Assembly: GCF_029227915.1 (NCBI RefSeq)
Contig: NC_079877.1
Span: forward strand, 8,432,001-8,496,000
DNA: 64,000 nt
Direction of reading: 5' to 3'
Source of the DNA: Hydractinia symbiolongicarpus
Taxonomy: Eukaryota > Cnidaria > Hydrozoa > Anthoathecata > Hydractiniidae
Below, piece after piece: positions 1-64,000 of the stretch. Under the pieces are notes generated by a model. It saw nothing but the letters and a program-made list of their open reading frames with translations. It had not been told where the DNA came from and did no database searches. The position numbers and the translations under genes were made by a program. The stretch's first letter is position 1; every line of letters begins with the position of its first letter.

Positions 1-29
1 CGGAGTGGCAAAGGCGAAGCAAACTTGAT

Positions 30-102
30 GGGGAACTAGCTCAGATGGTAGAGCGCTCGCTTAGCATGCGAGAGGTACCGGGATCGATGCCCGGGTTCTC
101 CA
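30..102 (+). tRNA. tRNA-Ala(AGC), unit 1
   Basis: Reference copy, 73 bases. Acceptor GGGGAAC pairs with GTTCTCC and keeps the G3:T70 wobble that is the alanine identity element; discriminator A73; anticodon loop TTAGCAT between CTCGC and GCGAG. The T loop is ATCGATG, with A54 in place of the usual T, as in other invertebrate tRNA-Ala genes I know. Box A lies at TAGCTCAGATGG and box B at the T arm. CCA is not encoded. A TTTT run follows at 108-111. Positions 8 to 65 differ from Ala(TGC) only at 15 and 34. Confidence 0.97.
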
Positions 103-107
103 ATGCC

Positions 108-111
108 TTTT
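108..111 (+). terminator. Pol III terminator of tRNA-Ala(AGC), unit 1
   Basis: TTTT six bases after the tRNA end, conserved in the other units (in units 35 and 37 it is five T). Confidence 0.8.
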
Positions 112-170
112 CCATAGGCGTAAAATAAATGAAATTTGCGCATAGCAATTTGCAGCAGCGTTCGTGTCAT

Positions 171-286
171 GTTGGGATGGCCGAGCGGTCTAAGGCGCCA
201 GACTCAAGACAAAATGTTCTTCCACTCATCGCGTGGAGAATTCTGGTCCTCGAATGAGGGCGTGGGTTCGAATCCCACTTCCGACA
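171..286 (+). tRNA. tRNA-Leu(CAA) with intron, unit 1
   Basis: Reference copy, 116 bases: 84-base mature tRNA plus a 32-base intron at 209-240, directly after position 37 as in eukaryotic nuclear tRNA-Leu(CAA). Anticodon stem CCAGA pairs with TCTGG across the intron. Long class II variable arm (CCTCGAATGAGGG). Box B is GGTTCGAATCC. The intron contains TTCTTCCAC and GTGGAGAA, able to form a hairpin with one bulged T. This unit has C3 changed to T (also in unit 3), giving a T3-G70 wobble. TTTT follows at 289-292. Confidence 0.96.
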
Positions 287-288
287 AC

Positions 289-292
289 TTTT
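289..292 (+). terminator. Pol III terminator of tRNA-Leu, unit 1
   Basis: TTTT three bases after the tRNA-Leu end; a second run on the same strand lies in the palindrome downstream. Confidence 0.8.
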
Positions 293-306
293 CCCTGCCA
301 CACAAA

Positions 307-322
307 ATTTTAGGCCTAAAAT
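307..322. terminator. Palindromic bidirectional terminator between Leu and Tyr, unit 1
   Basis: ATTTTAGGCCTAAAAT is a perfect 16-bp palindrome midway between the convergent Leu(+) and Tyr(-) genes. It presents TTTT on each strand: 308-311 for transcripts from Leu, and 318-321 read on the minus strand for transcripts from Tyr. It is unchanged in the units I read. Confidence 0.75.
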
Positions 323-327
323 GCAAG

Positions 328-421
328 TCCACCGAGCCGGATTTGAACCAGCGACCTAAGGATGCCTGAGTGGTATAAGTTCGTCTACAGTCCTCCGCTC
401 TACCAACTGAGCTATCGGTGG
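328..421 (-). tRNA. tRNA-Tyr(GTA) with intron, unit 1
   Basis: Reference copy on the minus strand, 94 bases: 73-base mature tRNA plus a 21-base intron at 364-384 after position 37. The eukaryotic tyrosine identity pair C1:G72 is present, with discriminator A73. The anticodon loop is CTGTAG-intron-A. The intron holds a TAC able to pair with the GTA anticodon, as is usual for eukaryotic tRNA-Tyr introns. Downstream TTTT on the minus strand lies at 318-321. Confidence 0.96.
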
Positions 422-491
422 ATGTAGCATCGTACAGTTCTTGTGAAGGACTATGCAGGTCATGTCACGTTTGTAGTATGACGTGGTTTTT

Positions 492-495
492 AAAA
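492..495 (-). terminator. Pol III terminator of initiator tRNA-Met, unit 1
   Basis: TTTT on the minus strand 19 bases beyond the iMet 3' end. Confidence 0.7.
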
Positions 496-514
496 TGATG
501 CGATAGCTCGCACG

Positions 515-586
515 TAGCAGAGGGTGGTTTCGATCCACCGACCTCTGGGTTATGGGCCCAGCACGCTTCCTCTGCGCCACTCTGCT
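515..586 (-). tRNA. Initiator tRNA-Met(CAT), unit 1
   Basis: Reference copy on the minus strand, 72 bases. Initiator marks: A1:T72 pair, three consecutive G-C pairs in the anticodon stem (CTGGG with CCCAG), loop CCCATAA with C33, and T loop ATCGAAA with A54 and A60. The sequence is very close to the animal initiator as I know it. Its 5' end faces Ala(TGC) across an 88-bp divergent spacer. Confidence 0.97.
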
Positions 587-674
587 GAAGGTAGGTAAGC
601 TGAAATGTGTCTGATGTAAGGTGTAGTTTAGTATTGCGAACAGCAATCGAACTATGACATTTTTACCAGTTCCA

Positions 675-747
675 GGGGGATTAGCTCACATGGTAGAGCG
701 CTCGCTTTGCATGCGAGAGGTACCGGGATCGATGCCCGGATCCTCCA
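675..747 (+). tRNA. tRNA-Ala(TGC), unit 1
   Basis: Reference copy, 73 bases. Acceptor GGGGGAT pairs with ATCCTCC and keeps G3:T70; anticodon loop TTTGCAT. The body from 8 to 65 is that of Ala(AGC) except C15 and T34, so the two isoacceptors look like products of duplication plus an anticodon change. TTTTT follows at 756-760. Confidence 0.97.
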
Positions 748-755
748 AGACGATG

Positions 756-760
756 TTTTT
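756..760 (+). terminator. Pol III terminator of tRNA-Ala(TGC), unit 1
   Basis: TTTTT eight bases after the tRNA end, followed by further T-rich sequence (771-775). Confidence 0.8.
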
Positions 761-841
761 AATTTATTTATTTTTATACTAATTTCAGTAGTTGCCAATG
801 GTCCTAAGAGGATTTATGATGCTCCTAAGATTACCTGGTAT

Positions 842-865
842 TAATAATAATAATAATAATAATAA
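842..865 (+). repeat. (TAA)8 microsatellite, unit 1
   Basis: Eight TAA repeats in the Ala(TGC)-Asp spacer. The count per unit, inferred from spacer length and reading, is 8, 11, 8 in units 1 to 3, mostly 6 or 7 elsewhere, and 9 in unit 40. In units 44 to 46 the tract ends in an AATTATAC variant. This is the main source of unit length variation. Confidence 0.95.
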
Positions 866-1012
866 TACTAAACCGCGCTGCATATGTCTAGAGCATTTCT
901 TGCTGTTTAATTTCGATTTGACAATATACACAGTTTCAGCTTTTAACATGATCGACCGTGTGGCATTCGGGCATTGACGCCATCGCGAACATATTATTTA
1001 AATATGAACTCG

Positions 1013-1084
1013 TCCTCGGTAGTATAGTGGTAAGTATCCCCGCCTGTCACGCGGGAGACCGGGGTTCGATTCCCCGCCGAGGAG
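1013..1084 (+). tRNA. tRNA-Asp(GTC), unit 1
   Basis: Reference copy, 72 bases. Acceptor TCCTCGG pairs with CCGGGGA (here CCGAGGA), discriminator G73 as expected for aspartate. Anticodon stem CCCGC/GCGGG with loop CTGTCAC; box B GGTTCGATTCC. An AT-rich block (991-1005) sits just upstream. TTTTT follows at 1089-1093. This copy has G69 changed to A, which turns a T4-G69 wobble into a Watson-Crick pair. Confidence 0.97.
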
Positions 1085-1088
1085 GTTC

Positions 1089-1093
1089 TTTTT
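1089..1093 (+). terminator. Pol III terminator of tRNA-Asp, unit 1
   Basis: TTTTT four bases after the tRNA end, between Asp and Lys. Confidence 0.8.
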
Positions 1094-1157
1094 ATCTTGT
1101 CAATGTTTCGTTTCACGTCAGTAGCGTTCGCGGGACTGTCCGGGAATACAGATTTAC

Positions 1158-1230
1158 GCCCGGTTAGCTCAGTCGGTAGAGCATCAGACTTTTAATCTGA
1201 GGGTCGCGGGTTCGAGTCCCTCATCGGGCG
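1158..1230 (+). tRNA. tRNA-Lys(TTT), unit 1
   Basis: Reference copy, 73 bases. Acceptor GCCCGGT/ATCGGGC, discriminator G73, anticodon loop CTTTTAA, box A TTAGCTCAGTCGG, box B GGTTCGAGTCC. The T stem is GCGGG against CCCTC, so C50 faces T64, an unpaired position kept in essentially all copies. Unlike the other six genes there is no TTTT run in the 107 bases before the next Ala(AGC), only TTT. Confidence 0.96.
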
Positions 1231-1337
1231 TAACAATTATTTGGTACGATGGTGAACTAACTTTCACCACAATGTCTTGTCGAAAGAGGATGAATAACGT
1301 AACATTTGCGGAGTGGCAAAGGCGAAGCAAACTTGAT

Positions 1338-1410
1338 GGGGAACTAGCTCAGATGGTAGAGCGCTCGCTTAGCATGCGAGAGGTACCGGGATCGATGCCC
1401 GGGTTCTCCA
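1338..1410 (+). tRNA. tRNA-Ala(AGC), unit 2
   Basis: Matches consensus. Confidence 0.95.
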
Positions 1411-1478
1411 ATGCCTTTTCCATAGGCGTAAAATAAATGAAATTTGCGCAGAGCAATTTGCAGCAGCGTTCGTGTCAT

Positions 1479-1594
1479 GTCGGGATGGCCGAGCGGTCTA
1501 AGGCGCCAGACTCAAGACAAAATGTTCTTCCACTCATCGCGTGGAGAATTCTGGTCCTCGAATGAGGGCGTGGGTTCGAATCCCACTTCCGACA
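1479..1594 (+). tRNA. tRNA-Leu(CAA) with intron, unit 2
   Basis: Matches consensus; intron 1517-1548. Confidence 0.95.
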
Positions 1595-1635
1595 ACTTTT
1601 CCCTGCCACACAAAATTTTAGGCCTAAAATGCAAG

Positions 1636-1729
1636 TCCACCGAGCCGGATTTGAACCAGCGACCTAAGGATGCCGGAGTGGTATAAGTTCGTCTACAGTC
1701 CTCCGCTCTACCAACTGAGCTATCGGTGG
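1636..1729 (-). tRNA. tRNA-Tyr(GTA) with intron, unit 2
   Basis: Exons match consensus; one intron substitution at 1675, shared with unit 21. Confidence 0.95.
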
Positions 1730-1822
1730 ATGTAGCATCGTACAGTTCTTGTGCAGGACTATGCAGGTCATGTCACGTTTGTAGTATGACGTGGTTTTTA
1801 AAATGATGCGATAGCTCGCACG

Positions 1823-1894
1823 TAGCAGAGGGTGGTTTCGATTCACCGACCTCTAATTTATGGGCCCAGCACGCTTCCTCTGCGCCACTCTGCT
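1823..1894 (-). pseudogene. Initiator tRNA-Met, unit 2, probably a pseudogene
   Basis: Three adjacent changes at 1855-1857 turn the 3' anticodon stem CCCAG into ATTAG, removing all three initiator-type G-C pairs (one mismatch, two wobbles). T1843 changes G53 to A, breaking the last T-stem pair inside box B. The anticodon is still CAT. Correct folding looks doubtful. Confidence 0.7.
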
Positions 1895-1982
1895 GAAGGT
1901 AGGTAAGCTGAAATGTGTCTGATGTAAGGTGTAGTTTAGTATTGCGAACAGCATTTGAACTATGACCTTTTTACCATTTCCA

Positions 1983-2055
1983 GGGGGATTAGCTCACATG
2001 GTAGAGCGCTCGCTTTGCATGCGAGAGGTACCGGGATCGATGGCCGGATCCTCCA
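1983..2055 (+). tRNA. tRNA-Ala(TGC), unit 2
   Basis: C61 changed to G at 2043, losing the G53-C61 pair. Confidence 0.85.
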
Positions 2056-2147
2056 AGACGATGTTTTTAATTTATTTATTTTTATACTAATTTCAGTAGT
2101 TGCCAATGGTCATAAGAGGATTTATGATGCTCCTAAGATTACCTGGT

Positions 2148-2149
<2 letters not shown>

Positions 2150-2182
<33 letters not shown>
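2150..2182 (+). repeat. (TAA)11 microsatellite, unit 2
   Basis: Longest TAA tract in the window, in the same spacer as in every other unit. Confidence 0.95.
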
Positions 2183-2186
<4 letters not shown>

Positions 2187-2329
2187 AAACCGCGCTGCAT
2201 ATGTGTAGAGCATTTCTTGCTGTTTAATTTCGCATTGACAATATACACAGTTTGAGCTTTTAACATGATCGAACGTGTGGCATTCGGGCATTGACGCCAT
2301 CGCGAACATATTATTTAAATATGAACTCG

Positions 2330-2401
2330 TCCTCGGTAGTATAGTGGTAAGTATCCCTGCCTGTCACGCGGGAGACCGGGGTTCGATTCCCCGCCGGGGA
2401 G
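2330..2401 (+). tRNA. tRNA-Asp(GTC), unit 2
   Basis: C29 changed to T at 2358, leaving a T-G wobble in the anticodon stem. Confidence 0.93.
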
Positions 2402-2474
2402 GTTCTTTTTATCTTGTCAATGTTTCGTTTCACGTCAGTAGCGTTCGCGGGACTGTCCGGGAATACAGATTTAC

Positions 2475-2547
2475 GCCCGGTTAGCTCAGTCGATAGAGCA
2501 TCAGACTTTTAATCTGAGGGTCGCGGGTTCGAGTCCCTCATCGGGCG
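2475..2547 (+). tRNA. tRNA-Lys(TTT), unit 2
   Basis: Conserved G19 changed to A at 2493, which would weaken the D loop-T loop contact. Confidence 0.88.
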
Positions 2548-2654
2548 TAACAATTATTTGGTACGATGGTGAACTAACTTTCACCACAATGTCTTGTCGA
2601 AAGAGGATGAATAACGTAACATTTGCGGAGTGGCAAAGGCGAAGCAAACTTGAT

Positions 2655-2727
2655 GGGGAACTAGCTCAGATGGTAGAGCGCTCGCTTAGCATGCGAGAGG
2701 TACTGGGATCGATGCCCGGGTTCTCCA
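2655..2727 (+). tRNA. tRNA-Ala(AGC), unit 3
   Basis: C50 changed to T, leaving a T-G wobble in the T stem. Confidence 0.93.
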
Positions 2728-2795
2728 ATGCCATTTCCATAGGCGTAAAATAAATGAAATTTGCGCAGAGCAATTTGCAGCAGCGTTCGTGTCAT

Positions 2796-2911
2796 GTTGG
2801 GATGGCCGAGAGGTCTAAGGCGCCAGACTCAAGACAAAATGTTCTTCCACTCATCGCGTGGAGAATTCTGGTCCTCGAATGAGGGCGTGGGTTCGAATCC
2901 CACTTCCGACA
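2796..2911 (+). tRNA. tRNA-Leu(CAA) with intron, unit 3
   Basis: C3 changed to T (as unit 1) and C16 to A at 2811; intron 2834-2865. Confidence 0.93.
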
Positions 2912-2952
2912 ACTTTTCCCTGCCACACAAAATTTTAGGCCTAAAATGCAAG

Positions 2953-3046
2953 TCCACCGAGCCGGATTTGAACCAGCGACCTAAGGATGCCTGAGTGGTA
3001 TAAGTTCGTCTACAGTCCTCCGCTCTACCAACTGAGCTATCGGTGG
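2953..3046 (-). tRNA. tRNA-Tyr(GTA) with intron, unit 3
   Basis: Matches consensus. Confidence 0.95.
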
Positions 3047-3139
3047 ATGTAGCATCGTACAGTTCTTGTGAAGAACTATGCAGGTCATGTCACGTTTGTA
3101 GTATGACGTGGTTTTTAAAATGATGCTATAGCTCGCACG

Positions 3140-3211
3140 TAGCAGAGGGTGGTTTCGATCCACTGACCTCTGGGTTATGGGCCCAGCACGCTTCCTCTGC
3201 GCCACTCTGCT
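3140..3211 (-). tRNA. Initiator tRNA-Met(CAT), unit 3
   Basis: G49 changed to A (plus-strand T3164), losing one T-stem pair; the same change occurs in unit 39. Confidence 0.88.
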
Positions 3212-3299
3212 GAAGGTAGGTAAGCTGAAATGTGTCTGATGTAAGGTGTAGTTTAGTATTGCGAACAGCACTCGAACTATGACATTTTTACCAGTTCCA

Positions 3300-3372
3300 G
3301 GGGGATTAGCTCACATGGTAGAGCGCTCGCTTTGCATGCGAGAGCTACTGGGATCGATGCCCGGATCCTCCA
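3300..3372 (+). tRNA. tRNA-Ala(TGC), unit 3
   Basis: G46 changed to C and C50 to T (T-G wobble). Confidence 0.9.
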
Positions 3373-3637
3373 AGACGATGTTTTTAATTTATTTATTTTT
3401 ATACTAATTTCAGTAGTTGCCAATGGTCCTAAGAGGATTTATGATGCTCCTAAGATTACCTGGTATTAATAATAATAATAATAATAATAATACTAAACCG
3501 CGCTGCATATGTCTAGAGCATTTCTTGCTGTTTAATTTCGATTTGACAATATACACAGTTTCAGCTTTTAACATGATCGACCGTGTGGCATTCGGGCATT
3601 GACGCCATCGCGAACATATTATTTAAATATGAACTCG

Positions 3638-3709
3638 TCCTCGGTAGTATAGTGGTAAGTATCCCCGCCTGTCACGCGGGAGACCGGGGTTCGATTCCCC
3701 GCCGGGGAG
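3638..3709 (+). tRNA. tRNA-Asp(GTC), unit 3
   Basis: Matches consensus. Confidence 0.95.
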
Positions 3710-3782
3710 GTTCTTTTTATCTTGTCAATGTTTCGTTTCACGTCAGTAGCGTTCGCGGGACTGTCCGGGAATACAGATTTAC

Positions 3783-3855
3783 GCCCGGTTAGCTCAGTCG
3801 GTTGAGCATCAGACTTTTAATCTGAGGGTCGCGGGTTCGAGTCCCTCATCGGGCG
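3783..3855 (+). tRNA. tRNA-Lys(TTT), unit 3
   Basis: A21 changed to T at 3803, a conserved core position. Confidence 0.88.
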
Positions 3856-3962
3856 TAACAATTATTTGGTACGATGGTGAACTAACTTTCACCACAATGT
3901 CTTGTCGAAAGAGGATGAATAACGTAACATTTGCGGAGTGGCAAAGGCGAAGCAAACTTGAT

Positions 3963-4035
3963 GGGGAACTAGCTCAGATGGTAGAGCGCTCGCTTAGCAT
4001 GCGAGAGGTACCGGGATCGATGCCCGGGTTCTCTA
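3963..4035 (+). tRNA. tRNA-Ala(AGC), unit 4
   Basis: C72 changed to T, so the first acceptor pair becomes G1-T72. Confidence 0.88.
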
Positions 4036-4103
4036 ATGCCTTTTCCAGAGGCGTAAAATAAATGAAATTTGCGCAGAGCAATTTGCAGCAGCGTTCGTGT
4101 CAT

Positions 4104-4219
4104 GTCGGGATGGCCGAGCGGTCTAAGGCGCCAGACTCAAGACAAAATGTTCTTCCACTCATCGCGTGGAGAATTCTGGTCCTCGAATGAGGGCGTGGGT
4201 TCGAATCCCACTTCCGACA
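4104..4219 (+). tRNA. tRNA-Leu(CAA) with intron, unit 4
   Basis: Matches consensus. Confidence 0.95.
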
Positions 4220-4260
4220 ACTTTTCCCTGCCACACAAAATTTTAGGCCTAAAATGCAAG

Positions 4261-4354
4261 TCCACCGAGCCGGATTTGAACCAGCGACCTAAGGATGCCT
4301 GAGTGGTATAAGTTCGTCTACAGTCCTCCGCTCTACCAACTGAGCTATCGGTGG
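4261..4354 (-). tRNA. tRNA-Tyr(GTA) with intron, unit 4
   Basis: Matches consensus. Confidence 0.95.
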
Positions 4355-4447
4355 ATGTAGCATCGTACAGTTCTTGTGCAGGACTATGCAGGTCATGTCA
4401 CGTTTGTAGTATGACGTGGTTTTTAAAATGATGCGATAGCTCGCACG

Positions 4448-4519
4448 TAGCAGAGGGTGGTTTCGATCCACCGACCTCTGGGTTATGGGCCCAGCACGCT
4501 TCCTCTGCGCCACTCTGCT
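4448..4519 (-). tRNA. Initiator tRNA-Met(CAT), unit 4
   Basis: Matches consensus. Confidence 0.95.
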
Positions 4520-4607
4520 GAAGGTAGGTAAGCTGAAATGTGTCTGATGTAAGGTGTAGTTTAGTATTGCGAACAGCACTCGAACTATGACCTTTTTACC
4601 ATTTCCA

Positions 4608-4680
4608 GGGGGAATAGCTCACATGGTAGAGCGCTCGCTTTGCATGCGAGAGGTACCGGGATCGATGCCCGGATCCTCCA
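4608..4680 (+). tRNA. tRNA-Ala(TGC), unit 4
   Basis: T7 changed to A, losing the T7-A66 pair; also seen in unit 35. Confidence 0.88.
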
Positions 4681-4939
4681 AGACGATGTTTTTAATTTAT
4701 TTATTTTTATACTAATTTCAGTAGTTGCCAATGGTCATAAGAGGATTTATGATGCTCCTAAGATTACCTGGTATTAATAATAATAATAATAATACTAAAC
4801 CGCGCTGCATATGTCTAGAGCATTTCTTGCTGTTTAATTTCGCATTGACAGTATACACAGTTTCAGCTTTTAACATGATCGACCGTGTGACATTCGGGCA
4901 TTGACGCCATCGCGAACATATTATTTAAATATGAACTCG

Positions 4940-5011
4940 TCCTTGGTAGTATAGTGGTAAGTATCCCCGCCTGTCACGCGGGAGACCGGGGTTCGATTCC
5001 CCGCCGGGGAG
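4940..5011 (+). tRNA. tRNA-Asp(GTC), unit 4
   Basis: C5 changed to T at 4944 (T-G wobble), shared with unit 6. Confidence 0.93.
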
Positions 5012-5084
5012 GTTCTTTTTATCTTGTCAATGTTTCGTTTCACGTCAGTAGCGTTCGCGGGACTGTCCGGGATTACAGATTTAC

Positions 5085-5157
5085 GCCCGGTTAGATCAGT
5101 CGGTAGAGCATCAGACTTTTAAACTGAGGGTCGCGGGTTCGAGTCCCTCATCGGGCG
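5085..5157 (+). tRNA. tRNA-Lys(TTT), unit 4
   Basis: Box A change C11 to A (5095) and T39 to A (5123), giving an A-A mismatch next to the anticodon loop. Both are shared with unit 6. Function doubtful. Confidence 0.8.
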
Positions 5158-5264
5158 TAACAATTATTTGGTACGATGGTGAACTAACTTTCACCACAAT
5201 GTCTTGTCGAAAGAGGATGAATAACGTAACATTTGCGGAGTGGCAAAGGCGAAGCAAACTTGAT

Positions 5265-5337
5265 GGGGAACTAGCTCAGATGGTAGAGCGCTCGCTTAGC
5301 ATGCGAGAGGTACCGGGATCGATGCCCGGGTTCTCCA
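5265..5337 (+). tRNA. tRNA-Ala(AGC), unit 5
   Basis: Matches consensus. Confidence 0.95.
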
Positions 5338-5405
5338 ATGCCTTTTCCATAGGCGTAAAATAAATGAAATTTGCGCAGAGCAATTTGCAGCAGCGTTCGT
5401 GTCAT

Positions 5406-5521
5406 GTCGGGATGGCCGAGCGGTCTAAGGCGCCAGACTCAAGACAAAATGTTCTTCCACTCATCGCGTGGAGAATTCTGGTCCTCGAATGAGGGCGTGG
5501 GTTTGAATCCCACTTCCGACA
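5406..5521 (+). tRNA. tRNA-Leu(CAA) with intron, unit 5
   Basis: Invariant C56 of box B changed to T at 5504, shared with unit 7; transcription and folding probably impaired. Confidence 0.82.
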
Positions 5522-5562
5522 ACTTTTCCCTGCCACACAAAATTTTAGGCCTAAAATGCAAG

Positions 5563-5656
5563 TCCACCGAGCCGGATTTGAACCAGCGACCTAAGGATGC
5601 CTGAGTGGTATAAGTTCGTCTACAGTCCTCCGCTCTACCAACTGAGCTATCGGTGG
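5563..5656 (-). tRNA. tRNA-Tyr(GTA) with intron, unit 5
   Basis: Matches consensus. Confidence 0.95.
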
Positions 5657-5749
5657 ATGTAGCATCGTACAGTTCTTGTGCAGGACTATGCAGGTCATGT
5701 CACGTTTGTAGTATGACGTGGTTTTTAAAATGATGCGATAGCTCGCACG

Positions 5750-5821
5750 TAGCAGAGGGTGGTTTCGATCCACCGACCTCTGGGTTATGGGCCCAGCACG
5801 CTTCCTCTGCGCCACTCTGCT
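5750..5821 (-). tRNA. Initiator tRNA-Met(CAT), unit 5
   Basis: Matches consensus. Confidence 0.95.
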
Positions 5822-5909
5822 GAAGGTAGGTAAGCTGAAATGTGTCTGATGTAAGGTGTAGTTTAGTATTGCGAACAGCACTCGAACTATGACCTTTTTA
5901 CCATTTCCA

Positions 5910-5982
5910 GGGGGATTAGCTCACATGGTAGAGCGCTCGCTTTGCATGCGAGAGGTACCGGGATCGATGCCCGGATCCTCCA
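5910..5982 (+). tRNA. tRNA-Ala(TGC), unit 5
   Basis: Matches consensus. Confidence 0.95.
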
Positions 5983-6241
5983 AGACGATGTTTTTAATTT
6001 ATTTATTTTTATACTAATTTCAGTAGTTGCCAATGGTCATAAGAGGATTTATGATGCTCCTAAGATTACCTGGTATTAATAATAATAATAATAATACCAA
6101 ACTGCGCTGCATATGTCTAGAGCATTTCTTGCTGTTTAATTTCGCATTGACAGTATACACAGTTTCAGCTTTTAACACGATCGACCGTGTGGCATTCGGG
6201 CATTGACGCCATCGCGAACATATTATTTAAATATGAACTCG

Positions 6242-6313
6242 TCCTCGGTAGTATAGTGGTAAGTATCCCCGCCTGTCACGCGGGAGACCGGGGTTCGATT
6301 CCCCGCCGGGGAG
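6242..6313 (+). tRNA. tRNA-Asp(GTC), unit 5
   Basis: Matches consensus. Confidence 0.95.
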
Positions 6314-6386
6314 GTTCTTTTTATCTTGTCAATGTTTCGTTTCACGTCAGTAGCGTTCGCGGGACTGTCCGGGAATACAGATTTAC

Positions 6387-6459
6387 GCCCGGTTAGCTCA
6401 GTCGGTAGAGCATCAGACTTTTAATCTGAGGGTCGCGGGTTCGAGTCCCTCATCGGGCG
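6387..6459 (+). tRNA. tRNA-Lys(TTT), unit 5
   Basis: Matches consensus. Confidence 0.95.
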
Positions 6460-6566
6460 TAACAATTATTTGGTACGATGGTGAACTAACTTTCACCACA
6501 ATGTCCTGTCGAAAGAGGATGAATAACGTAACATTTGCGGAGTGGCAAAGGCGAAGCAAACTTGAT

Positions 6567-6639
6567 GGGGAACTAGCTCAGATGGTAGAGCGCTCGCTTA
6601 GCATGCGAGAGGTACCGGGATCGATGCCCGGCTTCTCCA
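6567..6639 (+). tRNA. tRNA-Ala(AGC), unit 6
   Basis: G66 changed to C, losing the C7-G66 pair. Confidence 0.88.
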
Positions 6640-6707
6640 ATGCCTTTTCCATAGGCGTAAAATAAATGAAATTTGCGCAGAGCAATTTGCAGCAGCGTTC
6701 GTGTCAT

Positions 6708-6823
6708 GTCGGGATGGCCGAGCGGTCTAAGGCGCCAGACTCAAGACAAAATGTTCTTCCACTCATCGCGTGGAGAATTCTGGTCCTCGAATGAGGGCGT
6801 GGGTTCGAATCCCACTTCCGACA
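6708..6823 (+). tRNA. tRNA-Leu(CAA) with intron, unit 6
   Basis: Matches consensus. Confidence 0.95.
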
Positions 6824-6864
6824 ACTTTTCCCTGCCACACAAAATTTTAGGCCTAAAATGCAAG

Positions 6865-6958
6865 TCCACCGAGCCGGATTTGAACCAGCGACCTAAGGAT
6901 GCCTGAGTGGTATAAGTTCGTCTACAGTCCTCCGCTCTACCAACTGAGCTATCGGTGG
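6865..6958 (-). tRNA. tRNA-Tyr(GTA) with intron, unit 6
   Basis: Matches consensus. Confidence 0.95.
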
Positions 6959-7051
6959 ATGTAGCATCGTACAGTTCTTGTGCAGGACTATGCAGGTCAT
7001 GTCACGTTTGTAGTATGACGTGGTTTTTAAAATGATGCGATAGCTCGCACG

Positions 7052-7123
7052 TAGCAGAGGGTGGTTTCGATCCACCGACCTCTGGGTTATGGGCCCAGCA
7101 CGCTTCCTCTGCGCCACTCTGCT
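7052..7123 (-). tRNA. Initiator tRNA-Met(CAT), unit 6
   Basis: Matches consensus. Confidence 0.95.
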
Positions 7124-7211
7124 CAAGGTAGGTAAGCTGAAATGTGTCTGATGTAAGGTGTAGTTTAGTATTGCGAACAGCACTCGAACTATGACCTTTT
7201 TACCATTTCCA

Positions 7212-7284
7212 GGGGGATTAGCTCACATGGTAGAGCGCTCGCTTTGCATGCGAGAGGTACCGGGATCGATGCCCGGATCCTCCA
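7212..7284 (+). tRNA. tRNA-Ala(TGC), unit 6
   Basis: Matches consensus. Confidence 0.95.
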
Positions 7285-42093: not shown

Positions 42094-42096
42094 TCC

Positions 42097-56734: not shown

Positions 56735-56996
56735 AGACGATGTTTTTAATTTATTTATTTTTATACTAATTTCAGTAGTTGCCAATGGTCATAAGAGGAT
56801 TTATGATGCTCCTAAGATTACCTGGTATTAATAATAATAATAATAATAATACTAAACCGCGCTGCATATGTCTAGAGCATTTCTTGCTGTTTAATTTCGC
56901 ATTGACAGTATACACAGTTTCAGCTTTTAACATGATCGACCGTGTGGCATTCGGGCATTGACGCCATCGCGAACATATTATTTAAATATGAACACG

Positions 56997-57068
56997 TCCT
57001 CGGTAGTATAGTGGTAAGTATCCCCGCCTGTCACGCGGGAGACCGGGGTTCGATTCCCCGCCGGGGAG
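56997..57068 (+). tRNA. tRNA-Asp(GTC), unit 42
   Basis: Matches consensus. Confidence 0.95.
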
Positions 57069-57141
57069 GTTCTTTTTATCTTGTCAATGTTTCGTTTCAC
57101 GTCAGTGGCGTTCGCGGGACTGTCCGGGAATACAGATTTAC

Positions 57142-57214
57142 GCCCGGTTAGCTCAGTCGGTAGAGCATCAGACTTTTAATCTGAGGGTCGCGGGTTCGAG
57201 TCCCTCATCGGGCG
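57142..57214 (+). tRNA. tRNA-Lys(TTT), unit 42
   Basis: Matches consensus. Confidence 0.95.
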
Positions 57215-57321
57215 TAACAATTATTTGGTACGATGGTGAACTAACTTTCACCACAATGTCTTGTCGAAAGAGGATGAATAACGTAACATTTGCGGAGTGG
57301 CAAAGGCGAAGCAAACTTGAT

Positions 57322-57394
57322 GGGGAACTAGCTCAGATGGTAGAGCGCTCGCTTAGCATGCGAGAGGTACCGGGATCGATGCCCGGGTTCTCCA
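57322..57394 (+). tRNA. tRNA-Ala(AGC), unit 43
   Basis: Matches consensus. Confidence 0.95.
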
Positions 57395-57462
57395 ATGCCT
57401 TTTCCATAGGCGTAAAATAAATGAAATTTGCGCAGAGCAATTTGCAGCAGCGTTCGTGTCAT

Positions 57463-57578
57463 GTCGGGATGGCCGAGCGGTCTAAGGCGCCAGACTCAAG
57501 ACAAAATGTTCTTCCACTCATCGCGTGGAGAATTCTGGTCCTCGAATGAGGGCGTGGGTTCGAATCCCACTTCCGACA
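57463..57578 (+). tRNA. tRNA-Leu(CAA) with intron, unit 43
   Basis: Matches consensus. Confidence 0.95.
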
Positions 57579-57619
57579 ACTTTTCCCTGCCACACAAAAT
57601 TTTAGGCCTAAAATGCAAG

Positions 57620-57713
57620 TCCACTGAGCCGGATTTGAACCAGCGACCTAAGGATGCCTGAGTGGTATAAGTTCGTCTACAGTCCTCCGCTCTACCAACT
57701 GAGCTATCGGTGG
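57620..57713 (-). tRNA. tRNA-Tyr(GTA) with intron, unit 43
   Basis: G68 to A (plus-strand T57625), an acceptor mismatch. Confidence 0.88.
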
Positions 57714-57806
57714 ATGTAGCATCGTACAGTTCTTGTGCAGGATTATGCAGGTCATGTCACGTTTGTAGTATGACGTGGTTTTTAAAATGATGCGATAGCT
57801 CGCACG

Positions 57807-57878
57807 TAGCAGAGGGTGGTTTCGATCCACCGACCTCTGGGTTATGGGCCCAGCACGCTTCCTCTGCGCCACTCTGCT
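57807..57878 (-). tRNA. Initiator tRNA-Met(CAT), unit 43
   Basis: Matches consensus. Confidence 0.95.
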
Positions 57879-57966
57879 GAAGGTAGGTAAGCTGAAATGT
57901 GTCTGATGTAAGGTGTAGTTTAGTATTGCGAACAGCACTCGAACTATGACCTTTTTACCATTTCCA

Positions 57967-58039
57967 GGGGGATTAGCTCACATGGTAGAGCGCTCGCTTT
58001 GCATGCGAGAGGTACCGGGATCGATGCCTGGATCCTCCA
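57967..58039 (+). tRNA. tRNA-Ala(TGC), unit 43
   Basis: C63 to T at 58029 (G-T wobble). Confidence 0.93.
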
Positions 58040-58298
58040 AGACGATGTTTTTAATTTATTTATTTTTATACTAATTTCAGTAGTTGCCAATGGTCATAAG
58101 AGGATTTATGATGCTCCTAAGATTACCTGGTATTAATAATAATAATAATAATACTAAACCGCGCTGCATATGTTTAGAGCATTTCTTGCTGTTTAATTTC
58201 GCATTGACAGTATACACAGTTTCAGCTTTTAACATGATCGACCGTGTGGCATTCGGGCATTGACGCCATCGCGAACATATTATTTAAATATGAACTCG

Positions 58299-58370
58299 TC
58301 CTCGGTAGTATAGTGGTAAGTATCCCCGCCTGTCACTCGGGAGACCGGGGTTCGATTCCCCGCCGGGGAG
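58299..58370 (+). tRNA. tRNA-Asp(GTC), unit 43
   Basis: G39 to T at 58337, breaking the anticodon-stem pair next to the loop. Confidence 0.87.
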
Positions 58371-58443
58371 GTTCTTTTTATCTTGTCAATGTTTCGTTTC
58401 ACGTCAGTAGCGTTCGCGGGACTGTCCGGGAATCCAGATTTAC

Positions 58444-58516
58444 GCCCGGTTAGCTCAGTCGGTAGAGCATCAGACTTTTAATCTGAGGGTCGCGGGTTCG
58501 AGTCCCTCATCGGGCG
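58444..58516 (+). tRNA. tRNA-Lys(TTT), unit 43
   Basis: Matches consensus. Confidence 0.95.
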
Positions 58517-58623
58517 TAACAATTATTTGGTACGATGGTGAACTAAATTTCACCACAATGTCTTGTCGAAAGAGGATGAATAACGTAACATTTGCGGAGT
58601 GGCAAAGGCGAAGCAAACTTGAT

Positions 58624-58696
58624 GGGGAACTAGCTCAGATGGTAGAGCGCTCGCTTAGCATGCGAGAGGTACCGGGATCGATTCCCGGGTTCTCCA
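58624..58696 (+). tRNA. tRNA-Ala(AGC), unit 44
   Basis: T-loop G60 to T at 58683. Confidence 0.92.
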
Positions 58697-58764
58697 ATGC
58701 CTTTTCCATAGGCGTAAAATAGATGAAATTTGCGCAGAGCAATTTGCAGCAGCGTTCGTGTCAT

Positions 58765-58880
58765 GTCGGGATGGCCGAGCGGTCTAAGGCGCCAGACTCA
58801 AGACAAAATGTTCTTCCACTCATCGCGTGGAGAATTCTGTTCCTCGAATGAGGGCGTGGGTTCGAATCCCACTTCCGACA
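58765..58880 (+). tRNA. tRNA-Leu(CAA) with intron, unit 44
   Basis: G43 to T at 58840, losing the first anticodon-stem pair; shared with unit 45. Confidence 0.88.
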
Positions 58881-58921
58881 ACTTTTCCCTGCCACACAAA
58901 ATTTTAGGCCTAAAATGCAAG

Positions 58922-59015
58922 TCCACCGAGCCGGATTTGAACCAGCGACCTAAGGATGCCTGAGTGGTATAAGTTCGTCTACAGTCCTCCGCTCTACCAA
59001 CTGAGCTAACGGTGG
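58922..59015 (-). tRNA. tRNA-Tyr(GTA) with intron, unit 44
   Basis: A7 to T (plus-strand A59009), shared with units 45 and 10. Confidence 0.88.
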
Positions 59016-59108
59016 ATGTAGCATCGTACAGTTCTTGTGCAGGACTATGCAGGTCATGTCACGTTTGTAGTATGACGTGGTTTTAAAAATGATGCGATAG
59101 CTCGCACG

Positions 59109-59180
59109 TAGCAGAGGGTGGTTTCGATCCACCGACCTCTGGGTTATGGGCCCAGCACGCTTCCTCTGCGCCACTCTGCT
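59109..59180 (-). tRNA. Initiator tRNA-Met(CAT), unit 44
   Basis: Matches consensus. Confidence 0.95.
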
Positions 59181-59268
59181 GAAGGTAGGTAAGCTGAAAT
59201 GTGTCTGATGTAAGGTGTAGTTTAGTATTGCGAACAGCACTCGAACTATGACCTTTTTACCATTTCCA

Positions 59269-59341
59269 GGGGGATTAGCTCACATGGTAGAGCGCTCGCT
59301 TTGCATGCGAGAGGTACCGGGATCGATGCCCGGATCCTCCA
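59269..59341 (+). tRNA. tRNA-Ala(TGC), unit 44
   Basis: Matches consensus. Confidence 0.95.
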
Positions 59342-59600
59342 AGACGATGTTTTTAATTTATTTATTTTTATACTAATTTCAGTAGTTGCCAATGGTCATA
59401 AGAGGATTTATGATGCTCCTAAGATTACCTGGTATTAATAATAATAATAATTATACTAAACCGCGCTGCATATGTCTAGAGCATTTCTTGCTGTTTAATT
59501 TCGCATTGACAGTATACACAGTTTCAGCTTTTAACATGATCGACCGTGTGGCATTCGGGCATTGACGCCATCGCGAACATATTATTTAAATATGAACTCG

Positions 59601-59672
59601 TCCTCGGTAGTATAGTGGTAAGTATCCCCGCCTGTCACGCGGGAGACCGGGGTTCGATTCCCCGCCGGGGAG
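59601..59672 (+). tRNA. tRNA-Asp(GTC), unit 44
   Basis: Matches consensus. Confidence 0.95.
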
Positions 59673-59745
59673 GTTCTTTTTATCTTGTCAATGTTTCGTT
59701 TCACGTCAGTAGCGTTCGCGGGACTGTCCGGGAATCCAGATTTAC

Positions 59746-59818
59746 GCCCGGTTAGCTCAGTCGGTAGAGCATCAGACTTTTAATCTGAGGGTCGCGGGTT
59801 CGAGTCCCTCATCGGGCG
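59746..59818 (+). tRNA. tRNA-Lys(TTT), unit 44
   Basis: Matches consensus. Confidence 0.95.
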
Positions 59819-59925
59819 TAACAATTATTTGGTACGATGGTGAACTAAATTTCACCACAATGTCTTGTCGAAAGAGGATGAATAACGTAACATTTGCGGA
59901 GTGGCAAAGGCGAAGCAAACTTGAT

Positions 59926-59998
59926 GGGGAACTAGCTCAGATGGTAGAGCGCTCGCTTAGCATGCGAGAGGTACCGGGATCGATGCCCGGGTTCTCCA
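59926..59998 (+). tRNA. tRNA-Ala(AGC), unit 45
   Basis: Matches consensus. Confidence 0.95.
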
Positions 59999-60066
59999 AT
60001 GCCTTTTCCATAGGCGTAAAATAGATGAAATTTGCGCAGAGCAATTTGCAGCAGCGTTCGTGTCAT

Positions 60067-60182
60067 GTCGGGATGGCCGAGCGGTCTAAGGCGCCAGACT
60101 CAAGACAAAATGTTCTTCCACTCATCGCGTGGAGAATTCTGTTCCTCGAATGAGGGCGTGGGTTCGAATCCCACTTCCGACA
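60067..60182 (+). tRNA. tRNA-Leu(CAA) with intron, unit 45
   Basis: G43 to T at 60142, as unit 44. Confidence 0.88.
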
Positions 60183-60223
60183 ACTTTTCCCTGCCACACA
60201 AAATTTTAGGCCTAAAATGCAAG

Positions 60224-60317
60224 TCCACCGAGCCGGATTTGAACCAGCGACCTAAGGATGCCTGAGTGGTATAAGTTCGTCTACAGTCCTCCGCTCTACC
60301 AACTGAGCTAACGGTGG
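60224..60317 (-). tRNA. tRNA-Tyr(GTA) with intron, unit 45
   Basis: A7 to T (plus-strand A60311), as unit 44. Confidence 0.88.
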
Positions 60318-60410
60318 ATGTAGCATCGTACAGTTCTTGTGCAGGACTATGCAGGTCATGTCACGTTTGTAGTATGACGTGGTTTTAAAAATGATGCGAT
60401 AGCTCGCACG

Positions 60411-60482
60411 TAGCAGAGGGTGGTTTCGATCCACCGACCTCTGGGTTATGGGCCCAGCACGCTTCCTCTGCGCCACTCTGCT
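60411..60482 (-). tRNA. Initiator tRNA-Met(CAT), unit 45
   Basis: Matches consensus. Confidence 0.95.
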
Positions 60483-60570
60483 GAAGGTAGGTAAGCTGAA
60501 ATGTGTCTGATGTAAGGTGTAGTTTAGTATTGCGAACAGCACTCGAACTATGACCTTTTTACCATTTCCA

Positions 60571-60643
60571 GGGGGATTAGCTCACATGGTAGAGCGCTCG
60601 CTTTGCATGCGAGAGGTACCGGGATCGATGCCCGGATCCTCCA
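60571..60643 (+). tRNA. tRNA-Ala(TGC), unit 45
   Basis: Matches consensus. Confidence 0.95.
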
Positions 60644-60902
60644 AGACGATGTTTTTAATTTATTTATTTTTATACTAATTTCAGTAGTTGCCAATGGTCA
60701 TAAGAGGATTTATGATGCTCCTAAGATTACCTGGTATTAATAATAATAATAATTATACTAAACCGCGCTGCATATGTCTAGAGCATTTCTTGCTGTTTAA
60801 TTTCGCATTGACAGTATACACAGTTTCAGCTTTTAACATGATCGACCGTGTGGCATTCGGGCATTGACGCCATCGCGAACATATTATTTAAATATGAACT
60901 CG

Positions 60903-60974
60903 TCCTCGGTAGTATAGTGGTAAGTATCCCCGCCTGTCACGCGGGAGACCGGGGTTCGATTCCCCGCCGGGGAG
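60903..60974 (+). tRNA. tRNA-Asp(GTC), unit 45
   Basis: Matches consensus. Confidence 0.95.
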
Positions 60975-61047
60975 GTTCTTTTTATCTTGTCAATGTTTCG
61001 TTTCACGTCAGTATCGTTCGCGGGACTGTCCGGGAATACAGATTTAC

Positions 61048-61120
61048 GCCCGGTTAGCTCAGTCGGTAGAGCATCAGACTTTTAATCTGAGGGTCGCGGG
61101 TTCGAGTCCCTCATCGGGCG
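61048..61120 (+). tRNA. tRNA-Lys(TTT), unit 45
   Basis: Matches consensus. Confidence 0.95.
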
Positions 61121-61227
61121 TAACAATTATTTGGTACGATGGTGAACTAACTTTCACCACAATGTCTTGTCGAAAGAGGATGAATAACGTAACATTTGCG
61201 GAGTGGCAAAGGCGAACCAAACTTGAT

Positions 61228-61300
61228 GGGGAACTAGCTCAGATGGTAGAGCGCTCGCTTAGCATGCGAGAGGTACCGGGATCGATGCCCGGGTTCTCCA
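61228..61300 (+). tRNA. tRNA-Ala(AGC), unit 46
   Basis: Matches consensus. Confidence 0.95.
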
Positions 61301-61368
61301 ATGCCTTTTCCATAGGCGTAAAATAAATGAAATTTGCGCAGAGCAATTTGCAGCAGCGTTCGTGTCAT

Positions 61369-61484
61369 GTCGGGATGGCCGAGCGGTCTAAGGCGCCAGA
61401 CTCAAGACAAAATGTTCTTCCACTCATCGCGTGGAGAATTCTGGTCCTCGAATGAGGGCGTGGGTTCGAATCCCACTTCCGACA
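61369..61484 (+). tRNA. tRNA-Leu(CAA) with intron, unit 46
   Basis: Matches consensus. Confidence 0.95.
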
Positions 61485-61525
61485 ACTTTTCCCTGCCACA
61501 CAAAATTTTAGGCCTAAAATGCAAG

Positions 61526-61619
61526 TCCACCGAGCCGGATTTGAACCAGCGACCTAAGGATGCCTGAGTGGTATAAGTTCGTCTACAGTCCTCCGCTCTA
61601 CCAACTGAGCTATCGGTGG
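61526..61619 (-). tRNA. tRNA-Tyr(GTA) with intron, unit 46
   Basis: Matches consensus. Confidence 0.95.
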
Positions 61620-61712
61620 ATGTAGCATCGTACAGTTCTTGTGCAGGACTATGCAGGTCATGTCACGTTTGTAGTATGACGCGGTTTTTAAAATGATGCG
61701 ATAGCTCGCACG

Positions 61713-61784
61713 TAGCAGAGGGTGGTTTCGATCCACCGACCTCTGGGTTATGGGCCCAGCACGCTTCCTCTGCGCCACTCTGCT
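61713..61784 (-). tRNA. Initiator tRNA-Met(CAT), unit 46
   Basis: Matches consensus. Confidence 0.95.
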
Positions 61785-61872
61785 GAAGGTAGGTAAGCTG
61801 AAATGTGTCTGATGTAAGGTGTAGTTTAGTATTGCGAACAGCACTCGAACTATGACCTTTTTACCATTTCCA

Positions 61873-61945
61873 GGGGGATTAGCTCACATGGTAGAGCGCT
61901 CGCTTTGCATGCGAGAGGTACCGGGATCGATGACCGGATCCTCCA
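61873..61945 (+). tRNA. tRNA-Ala(TGC), unit 46
   Basis: C61 to A at 61933, losing the G53-C61 pair. Confidence 0.84.
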
Positions 61946-62204
61946 AGACGATGTTTTTAATTTATTTATTTTTATACTAATTTCAGTAGTTGCCAATGGT
62001 CATAAGAGGATTTATGATGCTCCTAAGATTACCTGGTATTAATAATAATAATAATTATACTAAACCGCGCTGCATATGTCTAGAGCATTTCTTGCTGTTT
62101 AATTTCGCATTGACAGTATACACAGTTTCAGCTTTTAACATGATCGACCGTGTGGCATTCGGGCATTGACGCCATCGCGAACATATTATTTAAATATGAA
62201 CTCG

Positions 62205-62276
62205 TCCTCGGTAGTATAGTGGTAAGTATCCCCGCCTGTCACGCGGGAGACCGGGGTTCGATTCCCCGCCGGGGAG
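62205..62276 (+). tRNA. tRNA-Asp(GTC), unit 46
   Basis: Matches consensus. Confidence 0.95.
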
Positions 62277-62349
62277 GTTCTTTTTATCTTGTCAATGTTT
62301 CGTTTCACGTCAGTAGCGTTTGCGGGACTGTCCGGGAATCCAGATTTAC

Positions 62350-62422
62350 GCCCGGTTAGCTCAGTCGGTAGAGCATCAGACTTTTAATCTGAGGGTCGCG
62401 GGTTCGAGTCCCTCATCGGGCG
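62350..62422 (+). tRNA. tRNA-Lys(TTT), unit 46
   Basis: Matches consensus. Confidence 0.95.
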
Positions 62423-62529
62423 TAACAATTATTTGGTACGATGGTGAACTAACTTTCACCACAATGTCTTGTCGAAAGAGGATGAATAACGTAACATTTG
62501 CGGAGTGGCAAAGGCGAAGCAAACTTGAT

Positions 62530-62602
62530 GGGGAACTAGCTCAGATGGTAGAGCGCTCGCTTAGCATGCGAGAGGTACCGGGATCGATGCCCGGGTTCTC
62601 CA
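62530..62602 (+). tRNA. tRNA-Ala(AGC), unit 47
   Basis: Matches consensus. Confidence 0.95.
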
Positions 62603-62670
62603 ATGCCTTTTCCATAGGCGTAAAATAAATGAAATTTGCGCAGAGCAATTTGCAGCAGCGTTCGTGTCAT

Positions 62671-62786
62671 GTCGGGATGGCCGAGCGGTCTAAGGCGCCA
62701 GACTCAAGACAAAATGTTCTTCCACTCATCGCGTGGAGAATTCTGGTCCTCGAATGAGGGCGTGGGTTCGAATCCCACTTCCGACA
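62671..62786 (+). tRNA. tRNA-Leu(CAA) with intron, unit 47
   Basis: Matches consensus. Confidence 0.95.
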
Positions 62787-62827
62787 ACTTTTCCCTGCCA
62801 CACAAAATTTTAGGCCTAAAATGCAAG

Positions 62828-62921
62828 TCCACCGAGCCGGATTTGAACCAGCGACCTAAGGATGCCTGAGTGGTATAAGTTCGTCTACAGTCCTCCGCTC
62901 TACCAACTGAGCTATCGGTGG
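62828..62921 (-). tRNA. tRNA-Tyr(GTA) with intron, unit 47
   Basis: Matches consensus. Confidence 0.95.
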
Positions 62922-63014
62922 ATGTAGCATCGTACAGTTCTTGTGCAGGACTATGCAGGTCATGTCACGTTTGTAGTATGACGTGGTTTTTAAAATGATG
63001 CGATAGCTCGCACG

Positions 63015-63086
63015 TAGCAGAGGGTGGTTTCGATCCACCGACCTCTGGGTTATGGGCCCAGCACGCTTCCTCTGCGCCACTCTGCT
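63015..63086 (-). tRNA. Initiator tRNA-Met(CAT), unit 47
   Basis: Matches consensus. Confidence 0.95.
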
Positions 63087-63174
63087 GAAGGTAGGTAAGC
63101 TGAAATGTGTCTGATGTAAGGTGTAGTTTAGTATTGCGAACAGCACTCGAACTATGACCTTTTTACCATTTCCA

Positions 63175-63247
63175 GGGGGATTAGCTCACATGGTAGAGCG
63201 CTCGCTTTGCATGCGAGAGGTACCGGGATCGATGCCCGGATCCTCCA
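63175..63247 (+). tRNA. tRNA-Ala(TGC), unit 47
   Basis: Matches consensus. Confidence 0.95.
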
Positions 63248-63506
63248 AGACGATGTTTTTAATTTATTTATTTTTATACTAATTTCAGTAGTTGCCAATG
63301 GTCATAAGAGGATTTATGATGCTCCTAAGATTACCTGGTATTAATAATAATAATAATAATACTAAACCGCGCTGCATATGTCTAGAGCATTTCTTGCTGT
63401 TTAATTTCGCATTGACAGTATACACAGTTTCAGCTTTTAACATGATCGACCGTGTGGCATTCGGGCATTGACGCCATCGCGAACATATTATTTAAATATG
63501 AACTCG

Positions 63507-63578
63507 TCCTCGGTAGTATAGTGGTAAGTATCCCCGCCTGTCACGCGGGAGACCGGGGTTCGATTCCCCGCCGGGGAG
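63507..63578 (+). tRNA. tRNA-Asp(GTC), unit 47
   Basis: Matches consensus. Confidence 0.95.
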
Positions 63579-63651
63579 GTTCTTTTTATCTTGTCAATGT
63601 TTCGTTTCACGTCAGTAGCGTTCGCGGGACTGTCCGGGAATACAGATTTAC

Positions 63652-63724
63652 GCCCGGTTAGCTCAGTCGGTAGAGCATCAGACTTTTAATATGAGGGTCG
63701 CGGGTTCGAGTCCGTCATCGGGCG
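63652..63724 (+). tRNA. tRNA-Lys(TTT), unit 47
   Basis: C40 to A (63691) and C63 to G (63714), mismatches in the anticodon and T stems; probably impaired. Confidence 0.82.
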
Positions 63725-63831
63725 TAACAATTATTTGGTACGATGGTGAACTAACTTTCACCACAATGTCTTGTCGAAAGAGGATGAATTACGTAACATT
63801 TGCGGAGTGGCAAAGGCGAAGCAAACTTGAT

Positions 63832-63904
63832 GGGGAACTAGCTCAGATGGTAGAGCGCTCGCTTAGCATGCGAGAGGTACCGGGATCGATGCCCGGGTTC
63901 TCCA
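63832..63904 (+). tRNA. tRNA-Ala(AGC), unit 48
   Basis: Matches consensus. Confidence 0.95.
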
Positions 63905-63972
63905 ATGCCTTTTCCATAGGCGTAAAATAAATGAAATTTGCGCAGAGCAATTTGCAGCAGCGTTCGTGTCAT

Positions 63973-64000
63973 GTCGGGATGGCCGAGCGGTCTAAGGCGC
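63973..64000 (+). tRNA. tRNA-Leu(CAA), unit 48, cut by the window end
   Basis: First 28 bases (acceptor strand and D arm) match consensus. Confidence 0.9.

Follow-up and report, generated by a model that had tools for sequence, protein, structure and literature searches.

What maintains a short block of tRNA genes in several hundred tandem copies, and whether such copies do any work, are questions raised by a 64,000-nucleotide stretch of the genome of the hydrozoan Hydractinia symbiolongicarpus, the whole of which we call the window. It lies at C3:8,432,001-8,496,000, C3 being a contig of 37.0 Mb in an assembly of 480.9 Mb (480.89 Mb) and 76 contigs; an assembly of this species has been described with 482.93 Mb in 84 scaffolds (PMC10411563). 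The window is part of a 642-kb array of a unit with seven tRNA genes that, judged by its sequence, evolves like satellite DNA, with a diverged left edge and with variants common to neighboring units. We lean towards the reading that the array turns over like a satellite and at the same time would supply tRNA in bulk, being kept by selection at the level of the array, although the alternative that it is a passenger without function has to be weighed at each step.

A single unit with a consensus length of 1,302 bp, repeated head to tail, makes up 96.0% of the window, in agreement with the estimate of about 96 percent in a first-pass annotation made from the letters alone. The genes of the unit stand in the order Ala-AGC, Leu-CAA (with an intron), Tyr-GTA (with an intron, minus strand), initiator Met (minus strand), Ala-TGC, Asp-GTC and Lys-TTT, and by alignment column counts they occupy about 44% of it. 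The same gene set (two Ala, Leu, Tyr, initiator Met, Asp and Lys) had been named in the annotation and is recovered when ARAGORN is allowed introns, with 329 tRNA genes in the window: 48 Ala-AGC, 47 each of Ala-TGC, Asp, Lys and Leu-CAA, 46 Tyr (a further Tyr slot is read as Leu-CAG), and 44 Met plus two with Ile anticodons. Because both the Leu-CAA and the Tyr genes carry introns, default ARAGORN (without introns) reports 271 genes, missing the former and calling the latter Leu-TAG. Rfam gives 330 tRNA matches at or above the gathering threshold in the window, the 150 matches listed all being to RF00005, and by our own count the 331 loci reported at first are these 330 together with one Leu-CAA gene cut by the window end. 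The spacing of the units is regular, 46 of 47 intervals measuring 1,284 to 1,317 bp and one, which contains an insert, 3,861 bp; part of the variation in unit length is explained by a TAA microsatellite (Tandem Repeats Finder).

The array runs past the window on both sides, as had been recognized from the letters. The main array extends from C3:8,379,684, a position inside an initiator gene, to about 9,021,456, its right end falling between the last exact marker match among the matches listed (9,021,421-9,021,456) and 9,024,001. The contiguous stretch C3:8,372,001-8,636,000 (264 kb) contains 1,323 ARAGORN tRNA genes, all 11 of the 700-base stretches sampled between 8.65 and 9.02 Mb are array, and none of nine further samples (8.30 Mb; 9.04-10.0 Mb) is. 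A 36-mer marker of the unit, with up to three mismatches allowed, has 489 matches genome-wide (481 forward and 8 reverse) as compared to none for its reversed control, which excludes chance; among the matches listed, all are on C3 except for one on the small contig C71. Seven genes at 489 matches would correspond to ~3,400 tRNA genes, a figure that is an estimate and not a count. Smaller blocks of units are present on C3 at 3.35 Mb, where all seven gene kinds are detected and one Tyr slot reads Asn, and, inverted, at 4.46 Mb. Two irregular places were seen in the array itself: a shortened unit of 451 bp at C3:8,851,689-8,852,139, where Ala-AGC and Lys are the only genes detected, and marker matches 657 bp apart, or about half a unit, at C3:9,018,805-9,021,456, which suggest rearranged units at the right edge.

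An array of this kind could be inflated or collapsed in length by the assembly, and the block at 4.46 Mb could be a misplaced piece of a haplotype. The match on C71 would be in keeping with this, as would a segment of the right flank carrying an initiator-Pro-Lys trio (C3:9,031,291-9,034,961) that recurs inverted, with 99.7% identity, at 4,446,331-4,450,000, close to the small inverted block; this copy, 4.6 Mb away, is either a recent duplication or a misplaced haplotype. However, pairs of units in the contiguous stretch differ at about 12.6 positions and with local structure, which is not an assembler's invention, and that among 200 aligned units just one matches the consensus everywhere apart from the microsatellite speaks against copying during assembly. 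The 264 kb contain no N, and an artefact could alter the count but hardly the array itself; of the explanations considered here we regard it as the least probable.

For a closer examination of how the units have changed we aligned 204 whole units, cut by a BLAST anchor. The main array contributed 200 of them, 16 of which come from four sampled loci and the other 184 from the contiguous stretch, and the remaining four are from 3.35 Mb; five intervals shorter than 1,250 or longer than 1,360 bp were excluded. The units are nearly identical, with a mean of ~6 variants per unit, and substitutions per letter in genes and spacers are 0.0036 and 0.0028 in the core and 0.0099 and 0.0087 at the edge. 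The contrast between edge and core concerns the left edge only: ten-unit blocks there average 10.9-13.1 variants per unit, compared to 2.8-8.1 in core blocks. The variant 890 G>A is carried by 38 of 40 edge units and all four units at 3.35 Mb but by none of the 160 core units, so that the core type is likely to be the derived one.

Neighboring units also resemble each other in their rare variants (those with 2-4 carriers), for which 191 of 440 sharing pairs lie at a lag of five units or fewer where 19.6 would be expected. Since the mean difference between units is nearly independent of distance within 80 units, local exchange would seem to be real but modest. At 8.93 and 8.96 Mb, units separated by 26,030 bp (20 repeats) carry identical odd variants, and this recurrence, the local sharing and the divergence of the edge are together as expected under an unequal exchange of whole units and blocks. 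A strict star-like burst without exchange, at which the weak effect of distance hints, is ruled out because carriers of a rare variant tend to be near neighbors. Also rejected was short-tract gene conversion within a unit between its two Ala genes, which are alike at 67 of 73 bases: five of the 204 units have a single base of the partner type and none has two.

If individual genes mattered, they might be expected to vary less than the spacers, and they do not. Across the 200 main-array units, the genes have 0.601 distinct site-variants per column, as against 0.444 for the spacers (Fisher P = 0.0025). The genes are richer than the spacers in G, C and CpG, and with context matched there are 313 gene variants where 284.6 ± 10.9 are expected (P = 0.005), no single context class being significant alone. 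The share of singletons is 65% among gene variants and 61% among spacer variants (P = 0.41), indicating that gene variants are not kept at lower frequency; the ratio of gene to spacer variant density is 1.14 at the edge and 1.29 in the core; and site-variants per column amount to 0.52 in the anticodon (only 21 columns), 0.62 in the A box and 0.65 in the B box. The anticodon is changed or lost in 16 of 1,400 gene copies, including one Leu copy with CTA, which would read UAG. Purifying selection on single copies was rejected on these tests of density, frequency spectrum, region and position, none of which makes it visible, and because the genes are not conserved relative to the spacers, each single copy is likely to be dispensable. 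Transcription-linked mutability of tRNA genes is a possible cause of the excess in genes, although not one demonstrated here, and a literature search on transcription-associated mutagenesis returned no paper.

That genes are neither more conserved than spacers nor poorer in common variants is in keeping with what would be seen if a seven-tRNA block had been caught in the expansion of a satellite and spread by unequal exchange, as a functionless and mostly silent passenger in heterochromatin. We consider this the main alternative, possible if somewhat doubtful. About ten copies of a 203-bp satellite adjoin the left end of the array, followed by about 13 copies of a 372-bp satellite that is also the content of the sample at 8.30 Mb; Lys and initiator genes exist elsewhere in the genome; and the SYY tRNA cluster of Arabidopsis, silent in most tissues, is a precedent for a cluster of this nature (PMC12308677). 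The SYY cluster is itself reactivated and used in some cells and tissues, however (PMC12308677), and other observations sit uneasily with a passenger: the consensus genes are intact and every kind is still detected at 3.35 Mb, 873 of the 1,120 gene copies in the core (78%; 141 of 280 at the edge) are identical to the consensus, and the slight excess of variability in genes fits transcription better than silence. Nor is the right flank like the left, as the 16 kb read there (C3:9,024,001-9,040,000) have no long satellite and contain an otopetrin gene, a member of an animal family that, with COX1 matches containing TGA codons elsewhere in the assembly, agrees with an animal origin; unit matches longer than 300 bp are absent from these 16 kb, in which only tRNA gene bodies match.

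The array has satellites on its left and, on its right, sequence with the otopetrin gene, a position that invites a further explanation, in which densely spaced A and B boxes bind TFIIIC and form a boundary or a domain of compaction next to the satellites, with tRNAs as a by-product. While a human tRNA tandem repeat has been proposed as a boundary (PMC4041453), the B boxes are not specially conserved here (0.649 events per column; remainder of the genes, 0.590; spacers, 0.444), and a boundary would not obviously require nearly 500 copies or seven genes. We think this improbable.

We favor a bulk supply of transcripts by RNA polymerase III (Pol III) because the consensus genes are intact and because the initiator has one compensatory stem pair. 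In the consensus, all seven genes retain their anticodon, A box and B box, and a T-run of at least four is found within 19 nt of six of the seven. The array initiator and a dispersed initiator with unrelated flanks differ by two bases that, by eye, form one T-stem pair, G-C in one and A-U in the other, which is a hint, and no more, that both initiator lines stayed functional. Near-fixed differences between the main array and the block at 3.35 Mb number one in genes and six in spacers (P = 0.12, with only seven informative sites), and for the four units at 3.35 Mb the ratio of gene to spacer density is 0.69 (P = 0.88 for distinct changes); both values point in the direction of constraint, and neither is significant.

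A plausible course of events is that units are gained and lost by unequal crossing-over, be it between sister arrays or homologous ones, which would thereby have spread one unit type through the core and left older units at the edge. Pol III would transcribe each gene from its own A and B boxes, in which case output would follow the number of good copies. With about four in five core copies equal to the consensus, the decay of single copies would be tolerated and outpaced by the turnover of units, and selection would act at the level of the array, not of the single copy. From the intact consensus and the precedents in zebrafish and Arabidopsis, the array is likely to make tRNA, and by analogy with the maternal tRNAs of zebrafish the growing oocyte or early embryo is the first stage to consider as its recipient. 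The proposal of the first-pass annotation that this is a bulk supply system resembling that of rDNA can thus be kept in part: the intact consensus, the zebrafish parallel and the presumed dependence of output on copy number agree with it, whereas the unselected single copies and the satellite-like behavior complicate it.

Several observations weigh against a supply function. No purifying selection is visible on copies in the 200 aligned units, the comparisons between the two arrays (P = 0.12 and P = 0.88) fall short of significance, and the left side adjoins satellites of 203 and 372 bp. The consensus Lys-TTT gene has no run of four Ts for 185 nt downstream, a distance that reaches past the next Ala-AGC, so that the two may be read as a single Pol III transcript; a dispersed Lys copy, unlike that of the array, has a T-run. 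Moreover, a Lys-TTT gene with an identical body is found outside of the array, as is an initiator gene, and the array is therefore not the only source of either. Dispersed initiators may be few, as a pattern search for initiators preceded by a base other than C found eight, all of them array copies, although this search is blind to copies with C before the gene, such as the two dispersed ones that are known.

A more particular suggestion is that the unit is a translation-start kit, in which the initiator and six elongator genes were amplified as one cassette and nearly all genomic initiators reside in one satellite. The length of the array would then set translation capacity at one life stage, single genes would be neutral, and copies with changed anticodons would be tolerated by dilution; we regard this as rather unlikely. 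If the array is expressed, its length would be a direct handle on initiator supply, and if it is silent, our impression is that it would be among the largest gene-rich passenger satellites. In either event it presents a countable case for asking what keeps multicopy RNA genes working when single copies do not matter: 489 marker matches are available, the units fall into two divergence classes, each of the genes has natural mutants, and two bases serve to tell array initiators from dispersed ones.

The array belongs to a general kind consisting of head-to-tail copies of one unit that holds several different tRNA genes. Xenopus has a multi-tRNA tandem unit of ~3.2 kb that includes Tyr, Ala, Leu, Lys and Met genes in a set and order of its own, and which the present unit, of 1,302 bp and with a different set, does not match. 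The gene set and order had been called unfamiliar at first reading, and this holds with respect to Xenopus and Entamoeba; arrays of the same general kind have precedents in cnidarians and fish. The tRNA arrays of Entamoeba with short tandem repeats (STRs) are also tandem multi-tRNA units, mostly uniform within an isolate, but have no more than five genes per unit, and complex STRs between the genes in E. histolytica and E. dispar (PMC2652664); the present unit has seven genes, and complex STRs were not found between them with Tandem Repeats Finder, only the TAA microsatellite in one spacer. Nematostella has more than 17,000 tDNAs, 89% of them clustered, mostly with heterogeneous neighbors and in clusters of fifty and more, and no seven-gene unit is described in the relevant passages of that report (PMC2888827). 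Tandem ncRNA arrays have been reported in Hydractinia (PMC11067881), and the present array may be among those already counted there. In zebrafish, repetitive tRNA clusters occupy the heterochromatic arm of chromosome 4, and maternally deposited tRNAs come from highly repetitive regions (PMC11417395); expression is known in that case. The human tRNA repeat at 1q23.3 is similarly a tRNA-bearing tandem repeat with copy-number variation, but consists of 9-43 units of 7.3 kb, is bound by CTCF, and has tRNA genes in less than 6% of the unit (PMC4041453), compared to about 44% here. The array is a very large addition to the known tandem tRNA arrays, notable for its size and for its unselected copies in two divergence classes.

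Table 1. Positions in the window of the array, of the genes of one representative unit, and of features that depart from the unit.
Feature	Position	Strand	Remark
Seven-tRNA units (1,302 bp) in tandem, up to the insert	1..40083	+	
Final units of the left edge, more diverged than the core	1..3961	+	edge/core change at about 3,962
tRNA-Ala-AGC, representative unit	5265..5337	+	ARAGORN
tRNA-Leu-CAA, representative unit	5406..5521	+	32-nt intron; ARAGORN with introns
tRNA-Tyr-GTA, representative unit	5563..5656	-	21-nt intron; Leu-TAG if introns are disallowed
Initiator tRNA-Met-CAT, representative unit	5750..5821	-	B box GGATCGAAACC; initiator identity judged by eye
tRNA-Ala-TGC, representative unit	5910..5982	+	ARAGORN
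tRNA-Asp-GTC, representative unit	6242..6313	+	ARAGORN
tRNA-Lys-TTT, representative unit	6387..6459	+	ARAGORN with introns
Initiator copy, anticodon now AAT	16183..16255	-	ARAGORN
Initiator copy, anticodon now GAT	17485..17557	-	ARAGORN
Insert in the spacer before Asp	40084..42628	.	2,545 bp, 30% GC; only non-unit gap >30 bp in the window
Seven-tRNA units (1,302 bp) in tandem, from the insert onwards	42629..64000	+	continues past the window

The insert that interrupts the array in the window has a longest stop-to-stop frame of 82 aa and contains diverged ~47-nt repeats; Rfam gives no match of its own to it at the gathering threshold. A second interruption lies just to the right of the window at C3:8,496,716-8,500,988, where a 4.3-kb non-LTR (long terminal repeat) retrotransposon occupies an array spacer before Asp. 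It has a frame of 426 aa, with a GDSL-like match that is below its cut-off, and one of 983 aa with endonuclease and reverse transcriptase domains.

An element of another type is found in the inverted block at C3:4,464,001-4,474,000, where four units that share four differences from the consensus are flanked by inverted arms of 132 nt (5,214 bp, or four units and 6 bp). The element has ends TA..TA and a 6-bp repeat, CTCGGC, within the A box of tRNA-Leu, with an integrase-core frame in its right flank. From these features it looks like IS3EU elements in tRNA-Leu genes, which would be either site-specific or multiplied together with the units; the inverted arms and integrase core fit IS3EU better than Dada, the other transposon considered.

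Elsewhere in the assembly, two COX1 matches 15,842 bp apart, each with eight TGA codons, are present near the start of contig C2 (9,924-11,264 and 25,766-27,106), and are possibly tandem mitochondrial copies, either nuclear or joined in assembly.

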